A stretch of DNA of 64,000 nucleotides from an uncultured Methanobrevibacter sp. (lineage in GTDB: Archaea > Methanobacteriota > Methanobacteria > Methanobacteriales > Methanobacteriaceae). This document shows, piece after piece, positions 3,001-60,139 of this stretch. Under the pieces are notes generated by a model. It was not told where the DNA came from. It saw nothing but the letters and a program-made list of their open reading frames with translations, and did no database searches. A program made the position numbers and the translations under genes. Position 1 is the stretch's first letter; each line of letters starts with the position of its first letter. Where the stretch lies: positions 1-64,000 of the forward strand of contig NZ_CADCJB010000011.1 in NCBI RefSeq assembly GCF_902801725.1, read 5' to 3'.

Positions 3001-6000
3001 CAATGATGATGAATACTTTGCAAGAATCAGTAACGGCACTGCAATACTTGAGCTTCCGTTATTGCCTGTTGGAGATTATAATGTAACTGTAATATTCTCT
3101 GGTGATGGTAAATATAATAACAATATGACTTATGCCAAATTCAGCGTACTTCCGGCAACTCCTGATATAATTATCGACGTTGAAAACGTGACTTATGGCA
3201 ATTCCACTCAGATTGTCGTAACACTCATCAATTGTGCTGAAGGTACTGTGAGCATTGAAATTGACGGAACTCAGTATGATATACCTAAACCGTTGAATAA
3301 CGGCAGGGTCGAATTTATTGTAAGTGATTTGGCTGCTGGAAACTACAATGTAAAAGCGACATACTCTGGTGATGCCAACCACACTGCCGTAAGCGGCGAG
3401 AAAAAATTCACTGTTTACAAGGCCTACAGAACAGTCACAGTTGATGTTCAAGACATCGTTTACGGTGATGTTGAAGGCATTAAGGTCTATGTGAATGCCG
3501 CAGGCAATGTAACCATTAAGCTAAACGGAAGAATCATTGAAGAAAATAAGGTTTTGGATGCAAATAACTCTACTCAAGTTACAGTTGCTAATCTGGCTGT
3601 AGGCATCTATGATGTAGAAGTAATCTATAATGGCAATGAAAACTATACTAAATCCAAAGCAACTGCAACATTCAAAGTATCTCCAATGGACACCACTTTG
3701 GATATAAAAGTTCATAATGTAGTGGTGTGGAATGATGAATACATCAATGTTACAGTCAGAAATTCAACCGGCGGCGTGGCCACTAACCTGAACGGCACTT
3801 TGACAATCAATATTGACGGCGTCAATCATGCTGTTGAAATTATCAACGGTACAGCCAAATTCAATCTCACTGAAAACAGTGTTGGCCACAGGGTCGTATG
3901 GGTATTCTTCGATGGCAATAAGAACTTTACACAAAGCAAGGAAATGAAAACCTATGAAGTCACACAAAGAATTCCTTCAATGGAGGTTATTTCCCAAAAC
4001 ATTATTGTTGGTCAGGATGGAAACATTACAGTAAAACTCCCTGCAAACGCTACAGGATATGTTGAAGTCATGGTCATTGGTGATGGAACTTACTATAGTC
4101 ATGTAAGTAACGGTCAAGCTGTTGTCTATCCTAAAAATCTAAAAGAAGGAGGCTATTCAGTTGATGTAAGATATCATGGTGATAAATATGATAATTACAA
4201 AGGTGTTTTGGTTGAATCTTACTTCACAGTATCCAAAGCTAATGTCAATGTAACAATCGACGTTAACGACACAGTTTATGGCAACGCTTCCAATATTATC
4301 ATCTACGTTGACGATGGCGTTGAAGGATCAATCACAATCAGAATCAACGATACCTTAATCGGCACATATGGCATAGTTGACGGCAAAGTCAACACCACTG
4401 TCAAATTGGATGCTGGATCTTACACAGTTTATGCCGAATATAACGGCAACTACAAATATTCTGTAAACAAAACAGAATCTAAAGGTTTCACTGTTGATAA
4501 GGCAACTCCTGTAATAACCATCGACACTCCTGAAGTCGTTGATGCAGCTACAAATGCAACAATTATTGTTAGAATTAATCAAACAGTAATGGGTAACATT
4601 ACAATTACTGTAAACGGCACAAAATACAATGCCACTATTGAAAATGGAGTGGCAACATTCACTATTGACCAATTGCTTTCAGGCCAATACGACATCACTG
4701 CTGAATATGGTGGTGACGGCAACTACACTGCAGCTACTCCAGTAACACTTCAAAACGGATTGACAGTAACCAAAGTAAGCTGCTATCAAATCAATGTGAC
4801 TGCAAATGATACTTATGTAGATTTAAATACTACAATAATTGTTAAAGTTCCTGCTGATGCAATTGGCAATGTGTCCATTTACGTTGATGACGTATTTGCT
4901 GGAAACGCTATCATATCACAAGGAATTGCACAATTGAATGTAACCAGACCTTACGGTAACCATACCATAAACGCAACATTCACCGACAGCAAATATGGTC
5001 CAAGATATGCCGTTTGGGATTATTGGGTATTCAAACATGAATCACCTCTTGTAATTAATGTTGATTCAATATTGGTGGGTGATAAGGCTTACGTTAATGT
5101 AACTGCACCTAGCGATAATGTAACTATTGAAATTAATGGTAAATCTTATAATAAAGTTAAATATGAAAATGGCATTGCTTACTTTGAAGTATCTGGTCTG
5201 GAACACGGCAATAAGACTGTCGTAGCTATTTATGGTGGCAGCGAAAAATACGTGCGAAACGCTACAACCGAAAACTTCACTGTTGGCAAACGTGATTCCT
5301 TCATAAAAGTAAATGCAACAAACTCCACTGTCGGAAGCGGAGCATTCATTAATGTCACTGTTCCTTCAGATGCAGCAGGCTATGTAATCGTAACTGTTAA
5401 CAACACTAACTACACAATTAACTTGGTCGGTGGAAAAGGTAATGTAACTATCTATAACCTGAAAAATAACACTTATGATGTTGTTGTGACTTACATTGGT
5501 GATGAAAAATACTTGTTGAGCACCAATTCTTCCAGCTTCAATGTATCCAAAGTTGAATCATCCATCAACATAACAATATCTCACTTTGGAATAATCGGAA
5601 ATGGCAGTGATGCTGACATAACCGTTGAAGTTCCGGCTGATGCAACAGGTAAGGTCGAAATCACAGTTGCAAAACAATTTGAAAGCAAAACTTATACTAT
5701 TTATGTAAATGATGGCAAAGGTGTATTGCATCTTGAAACTCCCGAAATAGGATTCTACAATGTAACTGCAAAATATCTGGGTGATGATAAATACATCGGA
5801 AGTGAAAATAAGTCTAAATTGGATGTTTACATTAATGGAAAAGAATTGTTTGTTGATACAGTCCCAACAACCGTAGCAGAAAAAGAAAGCATTACTGTAT
5901 GGGCTGAAGGCAGTCATTTTGGAGATAATTTAACTATTACTATTCGCGATAATGCCGGCAAGGTCATATTAAAACAAAATGTTACTTTCACTAACTATAG

Positions 6001-9000
6001 TGCTGATTATAATGTAAGTTGGGCTGTATTGCAAATAGGTCCATTGCCTGCCGGAGATTACTCTGTAGATGGATTGTATATTGAAATAGATGGTGTAAAA
6101 GAAATTTTACATTCAGGAAACAGTACATTTAAAGTATCTAAATTACGCTCCACACTGTCAATTAAGGAAATCAGAAACATTACTGTTGGAGAGGATGCAG
6201 TCATTGAATTTATACTTGATCCAAGTGTTACTGATGGTAATGTCTATGTATTTGTCAATGGTATTGAGTATAATCTCACCTCTTCTGATTTAACATTGAC
6301 AATTCCAAACTTGCGTGATGGAGAATATCACGTACGTGCATTCTACGAAGGGGATTATAACTACAGTCAATCAAATGCATCAGCAGTATTTAAAGTATCT
6401 AAAGTAAATCCACAAATCACAGTAAATGCAACTAACATCACTGTTGGTGAAAAAGTATTGATTGAGATAACTGCACCAAAAGATGTCACTCTGCCAGTGC
6501 TTGTTGATGTTGACGGTGTGGGATACTATGTAAATATCACTTCAGGCAAAGGACAATTATATGTCCCATACCTGGCCAGCGGAAATTACACTGTTGTTGT
6601 CAGATACTCAGGTGATGATAAATACAATAAAACTCAAAATGCTACTGAATTTAAAGTCTCCAAAGTATCCTCAACTGTAAATATCTCTGTTGATGATATA
6701 ACTGTAGGAGATAAAGCAATAATTAAAGTGCAAACTCCTAAGGATTTATGCGGAAATGTAACTGTCAGTGTGGATGGTGAAAACCATACTGTATTTGTTT
6801 CAGGAGGAGAAGGAACATTAGTCATCGCTGATTTGGCTGTCGGTCCTCATAATGTTGAAGTAACATTCGACGGATGTAAAAAATATGAACCGTCCAATAA
6901 TACCGCTAAATTCAATGTTAATAAAGTAAAAACAACTGAAGCTGATATTAAAGTCATTGATCAAGGCAATGGTACTGTGCTTGTCGTTGTTCCAAATAAT
7001 GCTACTGGAAATGTAACCCTTAAAGTTGGTGACAAGGAATTCAATGCAACTGTTGTCAATGGAACTGCTGTTGTTGAACTGGACAATGTTGCTCCAGGCA
7101 ATCATGAAGTTGATGTGATTTATTCCGGTGACGGCAATTATAATTCTACATCAACTAAAGCGAATATAACTGCTCCTAAGTATGATTCACCGATTGATAT
7201 TGAAATTGGTGAGATTATTGCTGGTGAAAATGGTACTATTGTTGTTAAATTGCCTGCTGATGCTGCAGGTAATGTTACTGTTAGTGTTGATGGTAAGGTT
7301 TACAATGCTACCGTTGTTGGTGGTGAAGCTATTGTTAATGTTGGTAATTTGACTGCTGGTCCTAAGACTGTTGTTGTTGAGTATTCAGGTGATGGCAATT
7401 ATACTTCAGGTTATGCTGTGGGCAACTTCACTGTTGAGCCTGCCATGATTGACCCTGATATCAGTGTTGTCGATTATGGTAACGGCACTGTTGTGGTTGT
7501 TGTTCCTGGTGATGCTAATGGAAATGTAACCATTACTGTAGATGGCAAGGATTATGTTGCAGAAGTGGTAAACGGCACTGCTGTTGTTGAATTGGATGAT
7601 GTAACTCCTGGAACCCACCATGTTGATGTGGTTTATTCCGGTGATGACAAATACTCCAATATTACTAAAACAACTGATATAACTGCTCCTAAGTATGATT
7701 CCCCTATTGACATTACTGTTGCTGAGATTAAGTCAGGTGAAAATGGTACTATTGTTGTTAAATTGCCTGCTGATGCTGCAGGTAATGTTACTGTTAGTGT
7801 TGATGGTAAGGTTTACAATGCTACTGTTGTAAATGGCGAAGCTATTGTTAATGTTGGTAATTTGACTGCTGGTCCTAAGACTGTTGTTGTTGAGTATTCA
7901 GGTGATGGCAATTATACTTCAGGTTATGCTGTAGGTAACTTCACTGTGGAACAGTCTAAAGTAGCTCCTGATGTCACTGTTGTGGATCAAGGCAACGGCA
8001 CAATTGTTGTCGTTGTTCCTAACGATGCTACTGGAAATGTCACAGTTAAAGTTGGAGACAATATCTATAATGCTGATGTTGTCAACGGTACTGCTACAAT
8101 AACTTTGGACGGTTTAACTCCTGGTGAAAACAACATTGAAGTAATATACAATGGAGATGACACTTACACCAATACAACATTCAGCTCTGTTGTGACCGGA
8201 CCTAAATATGATGCTCCTGTTGAAATCATAACAGTTCCTGGTGGAGCCGGTGAAGACACTGTAATCACAGTAAAAGTTCCTGAAAATGCTACTGGCAATG
8301 CAACAATCGAAATTGATGGTGTAAAATACACTGCAGAAATTAAAAACGGAAATGCAACATTCAGAATCAATAATCTGACTGCCGGCACCAAAACAATGGT
8401 TGTCGGATATGATGGTGATGATAACTATGCTGGAAAATACATAATATCCAATGTCACCATATCCAAAGTCAAATCAACTGTAAGTGCAACAGTCACTGAC
8501 ATTAACGTTGGTGAAAACGTAATCATAACTGTATTTGTTCCAGAAGACGCTACCGGTCAGGTATTAATTGATATTGATGGTGTAGGGTACTATGTAAATG
8601 TAACAAAAGGTACCGGAACCATACAAATACCTCGCATGCCTAATGGAATCTATAATGTAAATCTCACATATGTTGGTGATGATAAATACTTGCCAAGCAA
8701 TAATGTAGCTGTATTTGATGTAAATAAAGTTCCATCATATGTTATTCCAAAAGCAATAAACATCGCAGTTGGAGAAAATGAAATTATAGTATTTGAAGTT
8801 CCGTCTGATGCAACAGGAAATCTTAGTGTTATAATTAATGGCAAAGAGTTCACATTTGACCTTGATGGAATATTGGGTGCACCAATTTATGATGCTGGTA
8901 AATTTTCTGTAGCTGTCAGTGACGGCAAGGGCATACTGGTGATTTCAGGTCTTCCAAGAGGAACCTATGAGGTAATTGTAACATATAATGGTAATTACAA

Positions 9001-21283: not shown

Positions 21284-21567
21284 AAGATTCTATTATTTTT
21301 CAAAGTAAAAATAGTCGATAGGATTTCAATCTTTAAAATTTATCTGAAATGCAGTATTTTTTGAAAACTCCCTTATATTATCAACGCTTTTTGGTGAAGG
21401 TTTGGATGCATTGGTATTCCTTTTCATAGGATTTTTTTTGCAACAATGCCTTTGGAAGCACTGCTTTTGATGATAGTGGCACAAGCATTGTTCAAAACAA
21501 TTTGCAAAATTATAATTTATCCAATTACGAGAACACTTATTTTTAAAGTTAGAAAATTGCCTGAAAT

Positions 21568-45420: not shown

Positions 45421-45789
45421 TGGCTAAAGATACAGTCGAAGTTCTTATCGAAGAAAGTGCCTGTAAAAGTTATCATTGATAGAGATACTAAAGATTTCGA
45501 AATCGAAATTGGTACTCCACCAACAACTGCGCTTATCATGGAAGAATTAGGCATCGAAAAAGCTTCTCATGAACCAGGTTTAGATATCGTTAATGATTTA
45601 CCGATTGAAACCGCTTTAAAAATCGCAAGAATGAAATTCGATTCATTACTCGCAAACGATTACAAAGCAGGTGTCAAAGAGGTTATGGGAACCTGTGTAA
45701 GTATGGGATTATCTGTTGATGGTAAAGACCCAAGAGAAGCACAAAAAGCAGTAGATGCTGGAGAATATGATGATATCTTAGTAGAATAG
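45420..45789 (+). pseudogene. rpl11: Ribosomal protein L11, broken by an internal deletion
   Basis: ATG 45420 opens [11 protein letters not shown], the normal archaeal L11 start, but the frame stops after 19 codons. In another frame the gene resumes at about 45455 with [18 protein letters not shown] and runs correctly to DDILVE. Compared with the usual length of about 160 residues, roughly 38 residues (the GKATPGPPLGPAIGP...MMQVVEEI region) are absent, a loss of about 113 bp that shifts the frame. The junction reads ATCGAAG/AAAGTGCC. Functional L11 is expected, so assembly or sequencing error is the most likely cause; see findings. A 110-residue product from GTG 45457 would lack the N-terminal domain. 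Confidence 0.9.
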
Positions 45790-45968: not shown

Positions 45969-46607
45969 ATGACACAAGATGTAGTAAACGCGGTGAAGGA
46001 GGCTAAAGAACAATCAAAGCCGAGAAACTTCACTGAGTCCGTAGATATTATTATTAATATCCGTGACTTAGATGTCAAAAAGCCAGAAAATAGGTTTAAT
46101 GAGGAAGTTACTCTTCCTAAAGGCCGTGGCAAAGATGTTAAAATCGGAGTCATTGCTGATGGGGAACTCATTGTTCAAGCTAAAAATGCTGGTCTTGACG
46201 TTGTCGTTAACAAACCTGATTTAGAAGAGTTAGGAAAAGACAGAAAAGCTGCTAAAAAAATGGCAAACTCTGTTGATTTCTTTGTAGCTCAAGCTGATAT
46301 GATGCCACTCGTTGGTAGATTCTTAGGTCCAGTTCTTGGTCCTCGTGGAAAAATGCCAAAACCAGTGCCAGCTAGTATCAAACTTGATCCTCTTTTAGAC
46401 AGATTACAAAGTACTGTTAAAGTTGGTGTAAAACAACAAGCAAGTATTCAAATTGTTGTTGGAAGCCAAGACATGTCAGACGAAGATATAGCTGAAAATG
46501 TGGAAACTGTTCTTACAGTCTTAGACCGCAATTTAGAAAAAGGAAGAAGTCAAATCAAGTCCATGTTTATAAAAACAACTATGGGACCAGTAGTGAGGGT
46601 GATCTAA
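45969..46607 (+). CDS. rpl1: 50S ribosomal protein L1
   Basis: A 212-residue L1, typical archaeal length. Two-domain L1 fold: [18 protein letters not shown]-type segment (here [16 protein letters not shown]), then [18 protein letters not shown], the diagnostic L1 motif. Binds 23S rRNA at the L1 stalk and frequently controls its own operon. The stop overlaps the L10 ATG (TAATG), giving coupled translation. Confidence 0.96.
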
Positions 46608-47617
46608 TGGCTCATGTTGCTGAATGGAAAAAGGAAGAAGTTAAAGAGCTTTCTGGGATTATTGGCGAATACGATGTAATTGGTATTGTCGATTTATTAA
46701 ACATTCCTGCAAAACAGCTCCAAGAAATGAGAAAATCTCTCAAAGGCAAAGCTGTTATCAGAATGTCCAAAAAGAATCTCATTGATTTAGCTCTTGAAGA
46801 TTGTAATGCTGATAAAAACAATATTGTTGATTTATCTGGACATATGGAAGGTCAAATTGCACTTATTGCAACCGAAATGAACCCTTTCAAATTATACAAA
46901 ATATTAGAAGACAGCAAAACTTCAGCTCCTGCAAAACCAGGAACTATTGCTCCTGATGATATTGTTGTACCTGAAGGGGACACCGGATTTGAACCAGGTC
47001 CATTCTTAGGTGAATTACAACAAGTTGGAATTCCTGCAAAAATCGATAAAGGTAAAATCTGCGTACAAAAAGAAACTGTTGTTGTTGCAGCAGGTGAAGA
47101 AGTATCTAAACAAGTAGCGGCTACCTTATCCAGGATGGATATTAATCCAATGGAAGTGGGAATTGATTTAAAAGCAGTATACGAAGAAGGATCAGTCTAT
47201 ACTTCAGACGTACTCGCAATCGACGAAGAACAAACATTAGCAGATGTACAAAAAGCATTTTCAGGTGCATTCAACTTGTCTGTTAATGCAGCTATACCTA
47301 CTACAAAAACTATTTCCGCAATATTATCTCTCGCACATACCAGAGCTGTCAGCGTTGGTGTAGAAGGAGCTATATTGACTTCCAAAACTTCAGAACCAAT
47401 TCTTGGTCTTGTAAATGCTAGAATGTTAGCTATTGCTTCTGCAATTGCTGATAAAGAAGGCGCAATTGACGATGAATTAGCAGATAAACTTTCCAATGTT
47501 GCTGTAGCAGCCGCTCCAGTAGTGGAAGAGGAAGTTGTTGAAGAAGAGGAAGAAGAGGAAGAAGAAGAAAGTAGTGAAGAAGAAGCAGCAGCTGGGTTAG
47601 GAGCTCTCTTCGGTTAA
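46607..47617 (+). CDS. rpl10: 50S ribosomal protein L10 (P0 stalk protein)
   Basis: A 336-residue archaeal P0/L10. N-terminal rRNA-binding domain ([23 protein letters not shown]), insertion domain with [21 protein letters not shown], helical spine binding L12 dimers, and an acidic tail of glutamates ending [10 protein letters not shown]. The tail matches the end of L12, as in archaeal/eukaryal stalk proteins, and recruits elongation factors. GGTGATCTAATG: good ribosome-binding site just before the ATG. Intact, unlike its neighbours L11 and L12. Confidence 0.96.
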
Positions 47618-47678: not shown

Positions 47679-47838
47679 ATGGAATATATATATGCGGCAA
47701 TGATTTTGCACAGTGCAGAAAAAGATATTAACGAAGAAAATGTTAAAAGTATTATTGAAGGAAGAGGAAGAAGAAGAGGAAGAAGAAGAAGCTTCTGAAG
47801 AAGAAGCAGCAGCTGGATTAGGTGCTCTCTTCGGATAG
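47679..47838 (+). pseudogene. rpl12: Ribosomal protein L12 (P1), broken by an internal deletion
   Basis: ATG 47679 with GGTGAT just upstream opens MEYIYAAMILHSAEKDINEE, the standard L12 N-terminal dimerisation segment. After SIIEG the frame continues as arginine-rich RGRRRGRRR and stops, while another frame carries the expected acidic tail ending [15 protein letters not shown]. About 50 residues (the rest of the N-terminal domain and the alanine-rich hinge) are missing and the frame is shifted. L12 is essential, so this is probably an assembly artefact; see findings. Confidence 0.9.
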
Positions 47839-59007: not shown

Positions 59008-60139
59008 ATGTCATTTTTAAAATTCATTCTTAAAAATCCTAAAATTCATTCTTAAAAATCCGTTCAGGAGAAAGAACAGTGCAATACTGGCCATTGTGGG
59101 CATTGCAATAGGTATTATTGTCATTGTTGCTCTTGGTGGAATTACTGAAGGTTTGGTAAATACCTTTGAAGATACTATTCATGCGGGAGGTGCTGATTTT
59201 ACAGTTTCCGGTAAGGAAACGGGGGATTCCGCTTACGGAACCAATACAATCGATGCGAATTGGACAGAAAAAATAGCTAATGTCAGTGGCGTTGATGAAG
59301 CATTTCCAATCTATGTTGTGCTGACATCGGTCGGAGATGATTATATGAATACTCTGATTGGTATTGATCCGAACGGTACTGCTCTTGCAGACATTTCAAT
59401 GAAAGAAGGCAGAATTTTTGAAGATAATTCTTCTGAAGCCATTTTGGGTGAAATCTATGCTGAAGACAATAACTATTCTGTGGGTGATACTATTGACATC
59501 GACAGGGAAGAATTTGAAGTCGTTGGAATCTATGAAACCGGTGACCAGAATATGGCCGGTGGAGTGTTTACATCAATTTCCAAGGTCGGAGATCTGATGG
59601 ATGATGAGGATTCAATTTCAAACATTTATGTCAAGGTAAATAAGGGGGAGGATCCTCAAACTGTTGCTGATAGGATAGATAAGCAATATGGAGATAACAT
59701 TACAACTGTCACTTCAGTAATGGAGATGACTCAGATGGCCGACATGCTGAACATGCTTCAGGCATCAACCTGGGCGATTTCACTTCTGGCCATTGTAGTT
59801 GGGGGCCTTGGCATTATCAATACGATGTTGATGTCAGTTTTTGAAAGAACCCGTGAAATAGGTGTTTTGAAAGCTGTCGGATGGTCCAATAGAAAGATTC
59901 TGACCATGATTGTCGGGGAGTCATTGGTAATCACTATTGTCTCAGCCATTATCGGTTCGCTGATTGGTTTTGCAGCATGTACTCTTTTAGGTCCTCAAAT
60001 GGGTATTGAACCGTTATTCACTCCTAAAATATTCATCCAGGCATTTGCAATAGCTATTGTTGTTGGAATAATTGGCGGAATATATCCTGCTTTAAAAGCG
60101 GTCAGGCTTCCTCCAACAGAGGCATTGAGGTATGAGTGA
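59008..60139 (+). pseudogene. MacB/FtsX-type ABC exporter permease, frame broken by a 22-bp duplication
   Basis: The permease body (residues equivalent to 30-375) is intact: first helix IVGIAIGIIVIVALGGI, an extracellular MacB-type domain, then three helices with ISLLAIVVGGLGIINTMLMSVFERTREIGVLKAVG, the FtsX signature. The N terminus is broken. ATG 59008 opens MSFLKFILKNP but stops at 59031 because AAAATTCATTCTTAAAAATCC is present twice (59019 and 59041, period 22). Removing one copy restores MSFLKFILKNPFRRKNSAIL joined to the helix. Coding potential as it stands begins only at GTG 59096. Partner ATPase follows after 9 bp. Confidence 0.88.

Follow-up and report, generated by a model that had tools for sequence, protein, structure and literature searches.

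An apparent double deletion in the L11-L12 operon of a gut-type Methanobrevibacter draft genome is very probably an artefact of contig joining

Local assembly errors in genomes obtained from metagenomes have been described by Chen et al. (2020, "Accurate and complete genomes from metagenomes", PMC7111523), and they include Ns inserted despite overlapping flanks. The locus considered here very probably carries two errors of assembly within one operon, in the gene of L12 (the archaeal P1 stalk protein) and in the gene of L11.

The analysed stretch of DNA (the window) comprises 64,000 nucleotides, bases 1-64000 of contig C11 (84,526 bp). The source draft consists of 83 contigs with a total length of 2.16 Mb; it is 94% complete with 0.3% contamination. 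The nearest named relatives of the window are Methanobrevibacter, nearly all of them metagenome assemblies from animal guts. Because the relatives are such assemblies and the draft is fragmented, we regard it as a gut-type Methanobrevibacter that is almost certainly metagenome-assembled itself. The genes of the operon follow in the order L11, L1, L10, L12:

45420..45789, + strand: L11 gene as assembled, 113 bp missing, frameshifted (alignment with relatives; PF00298 in the downstream part)
45453..45454, no strand: L11 junction, read as a contig join; contig C26 of the relative G015 ends on the same base (comparison with relatives)
45969..46607, + strand: L1 gene, intact (relatives 91-98% identical)
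46607..47617, + strand: intact L10 (P0) gene, whose acidic tail resembles that of L12 (open reading frame and domain evidence)
47679..47838, + strand: L12 (P1) gene as assembled, 146 bp missing, frameshifted (alignment with relatives, coordinates)
47760..47761, no strand: L12 junction, read as a contig join (alignments and break points in relatives)

The L12 gene runs from ATG at 47679 to TAG at 47836-47838. Its length of 160 nt is not a multiple of three. Codons 1-30 are kept, and then the sequence jumps at 47760/47761 into the acidic tail in the wrong frame; accordingly, residues 1-30 and about 75-101 of the L12 of an intact relative align in two different frames that meet at this position. 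In comparison with orthologues of 101 aa, 146 bp are absent. The initial annotation, which had a correct start and end with roughly 150 bp lost between them and a shifted frame, thus described the gene well. A functional archaeal L12 would be a full-length PF00428 protein in one open frame; what we found is two fragments in different frames with no PF00428 match. A literature search for L12 pseudogenes of Methanobrevibacter gave nothing relevant.

The L11 gene upstream has a length of 370 nt, and alignment with relatives places the absence of 113 bp at 45453/45454. The claim of two frame-breaking internal deletions in one operon, with L1 and L10 intact between them, is therefore correct as a description of the assembled sequence (113 bp in L11, 146 bp in L12). 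One could suppose that both genes are natural variants rescued by translational frameshifting or by a split gene product, as the preservation of both the start and the tail of L12 might hint. However, all intact relatives have the segments that L11 and L12 lack here, frameshifting cannot supply codons that are absent, and no known mechanism suits both genes, which makes this supposition vanishingly improbable.

Two sequence-driven origins of the deletions were considered and rejected. Microhomology is one of them: judged against the relatives, the overlap does not exceed about 1 nt at either junction. The other is a common breakpoint motif, since both left flanks had been noted as ending in Ile-Glu-Gly. 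Ile-Glu is indeed common to both (ATCGAAG and ATTGAAG), but Gly is not: in L12 it is created by the junction, where the relatives read Ile-Glu-Ala-Ala-Gly, and in the L11 of the window the flank reads Ile-Glu-Glu. ATYGAAG abuts both junctions and is present on the + strand of the operon at those two places only. It occurs 51 times on both strands of the window and was chosen after the fact, and the right flanks of the junctions have little in common beyond GAA; the coincidence of the motif with both breakpoints is probably accidental.

The same locus is frequently interrupted in other assemblies of the genus. The genus set includes 67 genomes, 59 of them with an L12 match (G047, matched via L10 only, was left out). 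Of the 59, 15 (this draft included) have an interrupted L12, mostly owing to a contig end inside the gene. The interrupted genomes are G000 (this draft), G006, G007, G014, G016, G019, G022, G049, G050, G051, G065, G069, G071, G072 and G075; for G049 and G071, which are counted as interrupted, a contig end is a putative cause. Control stretches of the same length (101 aa) in two genes located near the operon were incomplete in 0 of 61 genomes for alaS and in 1 of 62 for ftsZ. The difference between 15/59 and 1/123 is highly significant (Fisher's exact test, p = 1.4e-7; 4.1e-7 without this genome).

The positions of these interruptions coincide with the break in the window. Within L12, the ends or starts of relatives' contigs fall on codons 31, 32 and 35 (close to the left side of the junction) and on codons 72-82 (close to its right side). 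Genome G016 (also record L111, RUG13476; 1124-1407) has its own frame-breaking loss in L12 at about codon 29-32, just after Ile-Ile-Glu-Ala-Ala. In locus L037, a gap of 10 Ns (6911-6920) interrupts L12; between this gap and the return of the tail lies a short stretch that looks unrelated. Twelve loci of named genomes, some of which are the same genomes as in the interrupted genus set, end at a contig end within the L10 tail or L12 (L038, L041, L042, L045, L049, L051, L052, L053, L055, L056, L057 and L061).

The L11 junction can be matched to the base. Contig C26 of the relative G015 ends with ...GTTCTTATCGAAG, which is the exact base where the L11 of the window jumps. Contig C70 of the same genome, the continuation of C26, repeats the last 52 nt of C26 and proceeds through an intact L11. 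An overlap such as that of C26 and C70 is the trace left by branching in a de Bruijn graph. In most relatives an identical stretch of 54 nt leads up to the L11 junction. Exact matches that end at this junction reach 75-108 nt in four species, and those flanking the L12 junction are 73 and 87 nt long in G005; within the 84 kb, these rank with the longest exact matches between species. The deletion itself makes a match end at a junction, so only the match length is informative here.

Other genes of the draft are broken in ways that resemble faulty joins. The comparison covered 366 genes, with 1.58 Mb taken from the source genome and 0.8 Mb from G010, a single-contig relative. The gene of ATP synthase subunit K (atpK; L149 = G000:C4, 3446-3902) has lost about 26 bp near 3560 and is frameshifted; the atpK of a relative has two ATP-synt_C repeats. 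The gene of the A-type ATP synthase B subunit (atpB; L147 = G000:C2, 705-763) is broken by an exact tandem duplication of 29 bp. A scan for tandem duplications revealed two further cases with a size that is not a multiple of three, both of 22 bp. One is an exact duplication at the start of the gene of the DNA primase large subunit (L152 = G000:C7, 17161-17205), where the frame is broken in comparison with G010. The other lies in the window:

59018..59061, + strand: exact tandem duplication of 22 bp, which shifts the frame of a MacB-like ABC permease gene at its start (duplication absent from three relatives)

This duplication probably marks another join within C11, at which the overlap was retained. 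All three duplications (atpB, primase, permease) look like contig ends joined without removal of the overlap. The stretches that were read also contain four runs of Ns (in C10, C15, C27 and C32); repeated sequence flanks two of these runs.

Decay of the whole genome was rejected as a cause, because the 366 genes compared with G010 yielded only a handful of breaks, which for the most part affect very conserved genes or coincide with likely joins. Positions 21345-21565 of the window hold a remnant of a gene of roughly 209 aa; G006 and G003 have this gene intact, and G005 and G009 lack it. The remnant has several losses and looks like ordinary decay, and we did not count it as a join.

Mixtures of strains are presumably usual in gut metagenomes, so the deletions might be real in a minority strain of the sample whose path the assembler took. 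Two deletions in one operon together with duplications and loss in other essential genes are, however, unexpected for a living strain, and the L11 junction is the contig end of another assembly to the base. We consider an origin in a minority strain extremely unlikely.

The initial annotation proposed a search of the rest of the genome for further copies of L11 and L12, and the search revealed none in the 94%-complete draft. The Pfam model of L12 has no match in the source genome at this completeness, while it matches in four archaeal control genomes. The L12 protein of a relative, used as the query, matched nothing in the 94%-complete genome beyond the two fragments and the tail of L10; L11 as the query gave only the locus in the window and no second copy in the same 94%. 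The single-contig genomes of the genus (G010, G013, G043 and G044) have one intact L12 each, in this operon. A real pseudogene would come with an intact replacement copy, and none was seen, a result that is not absolute for a genome that is 94% complete. That incompleteness leaves room for intact L11 and L12 in the part of the genome missing from the draft, with both genes in the window truly broken. Against such unassembled copies stand the absence of a second copy in the draft, the single L12 in the operon of single-contig genomes, and the coincidence of the break points with the ends of other assemblies. Moreover, unrelated essential genes are broken in a join-like manner in the same draft, and several spare copies would be needed at once. 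Truly broken genes with unassembled replacements are thus very unlikely.

As a separate observation, the L11-L12 operon is found twice in the draft of M. millerae SIG13, with equal scores and on different contigs (L058 and L059, i.e., G008:C9 and G008:C2); the bin may combine two strains or contain one contig in duplicate.

The order of contigs in the draft may also bear a trace of joining. Numbering by falling size holds for 23 of the first 41 contigs (mean 10 and maximum 16 in 2000 shuffles). Seventeen of the 18 out-of-order contigs are too long for their slots; C11 is among them, and all four runs of Ns lie in such contigs. The over-long contigs look as if they were built by extending a shorter seed, and the order suggests that C11 was assembled from shorter pieces. 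When cut at the Ns, C10 gives a piece of 50,383 bp and C15 a piece of 43,175 bp, both of which fit their slots; C27 and C32 give no fitting piece, and further joins would be needed there. For C11, a cut at the L11 junction leaves a piece of 45,453 bp, within the limits of the slot of C11 (43,851-53,203), but two random cuts do as well 28% of the time, so this fit taken alone is weak evidence.

Since no spare copy was found, the locus breaks in the assemblies of relatives, the draft has other faulty joins, and the order of contigs points the same way, we are highly confident that the broken L12 and L11 are assembly artefacts at contig joins and not a property of the living cell. L12 is intact in close relatives, single-contig genomes included, and broken here; the junctions lie where other assemblies break (15/59 against 1/123, and the exact base at the end of C26 of G015); the same assembly shows N-runs, three tandem overlaps and the loss in atpK. 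The absence of Ns at either junction counts against this reading. The initial annotation regarded a double break as very unlikely in a living cell and called for a second copy of L11 and L12 should the break be real; this view is supported by the lack of a second copy, by the one intact L12 of single-contig genomes and by several independent lines of evidence for assembly joins. In the organism itself, L11 and L12 are most likely normal and of full length. We give very little credence to a living Methanobrevibacter that has truncated L11 and L12 in its stalk operon and relies on replacement copies or on a stalk function from elsewhere in the genome.

The artefact most likely arose as follows. 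Several gut species of Methanobrevibacter with long identical stretches in the L11-L1-L10-L12 operon may coexist in a sample, and the GAA/GAG-rich tail common to L10 and L12 would add to the ambiguity at the locus. The short-read graph would branch at these points and contigs would end there; contig ends are seen in the relatives, and a similar graph is supposed for this sample. A scaffolding or joining step, whose exact nature we infer, would then set neighbouring contigs end to end, with the 113 and 146 bp neither filled nor marked by Ns.

The value of the case is solely cautionary. About one in four Methanobrevibacter genomes with an L12 match has an interruption in the L10-L12 region, and N-free joins that break genes can mimic double deletions of essential genes. 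Surveys of gene loss and pseudogenes based on such drafts can be misleading, most of all for the most conserved genes.

In comparison with the archaeal L12 / P1 stalk protein (PF00428), the start, the N-terminal part and the acidic tail of the gene in the window match the Methanobrevibacter orthologues, whereas the gene as assembled is without its middle and has a broken frame, and the Pfam model finds nothing in the genome. With the errors reported for metagenomes (PMC7111523) the locus and its draft share unsupported joins, duplicated flanks, gene breaks that resemble biology, and fragmentation due to the coexistence of close relatives. Unlike those errors, the two joins described here lost 113 and 146 bp without a run of Ns, and both lie in one operon and thereby resemble paired deletions.
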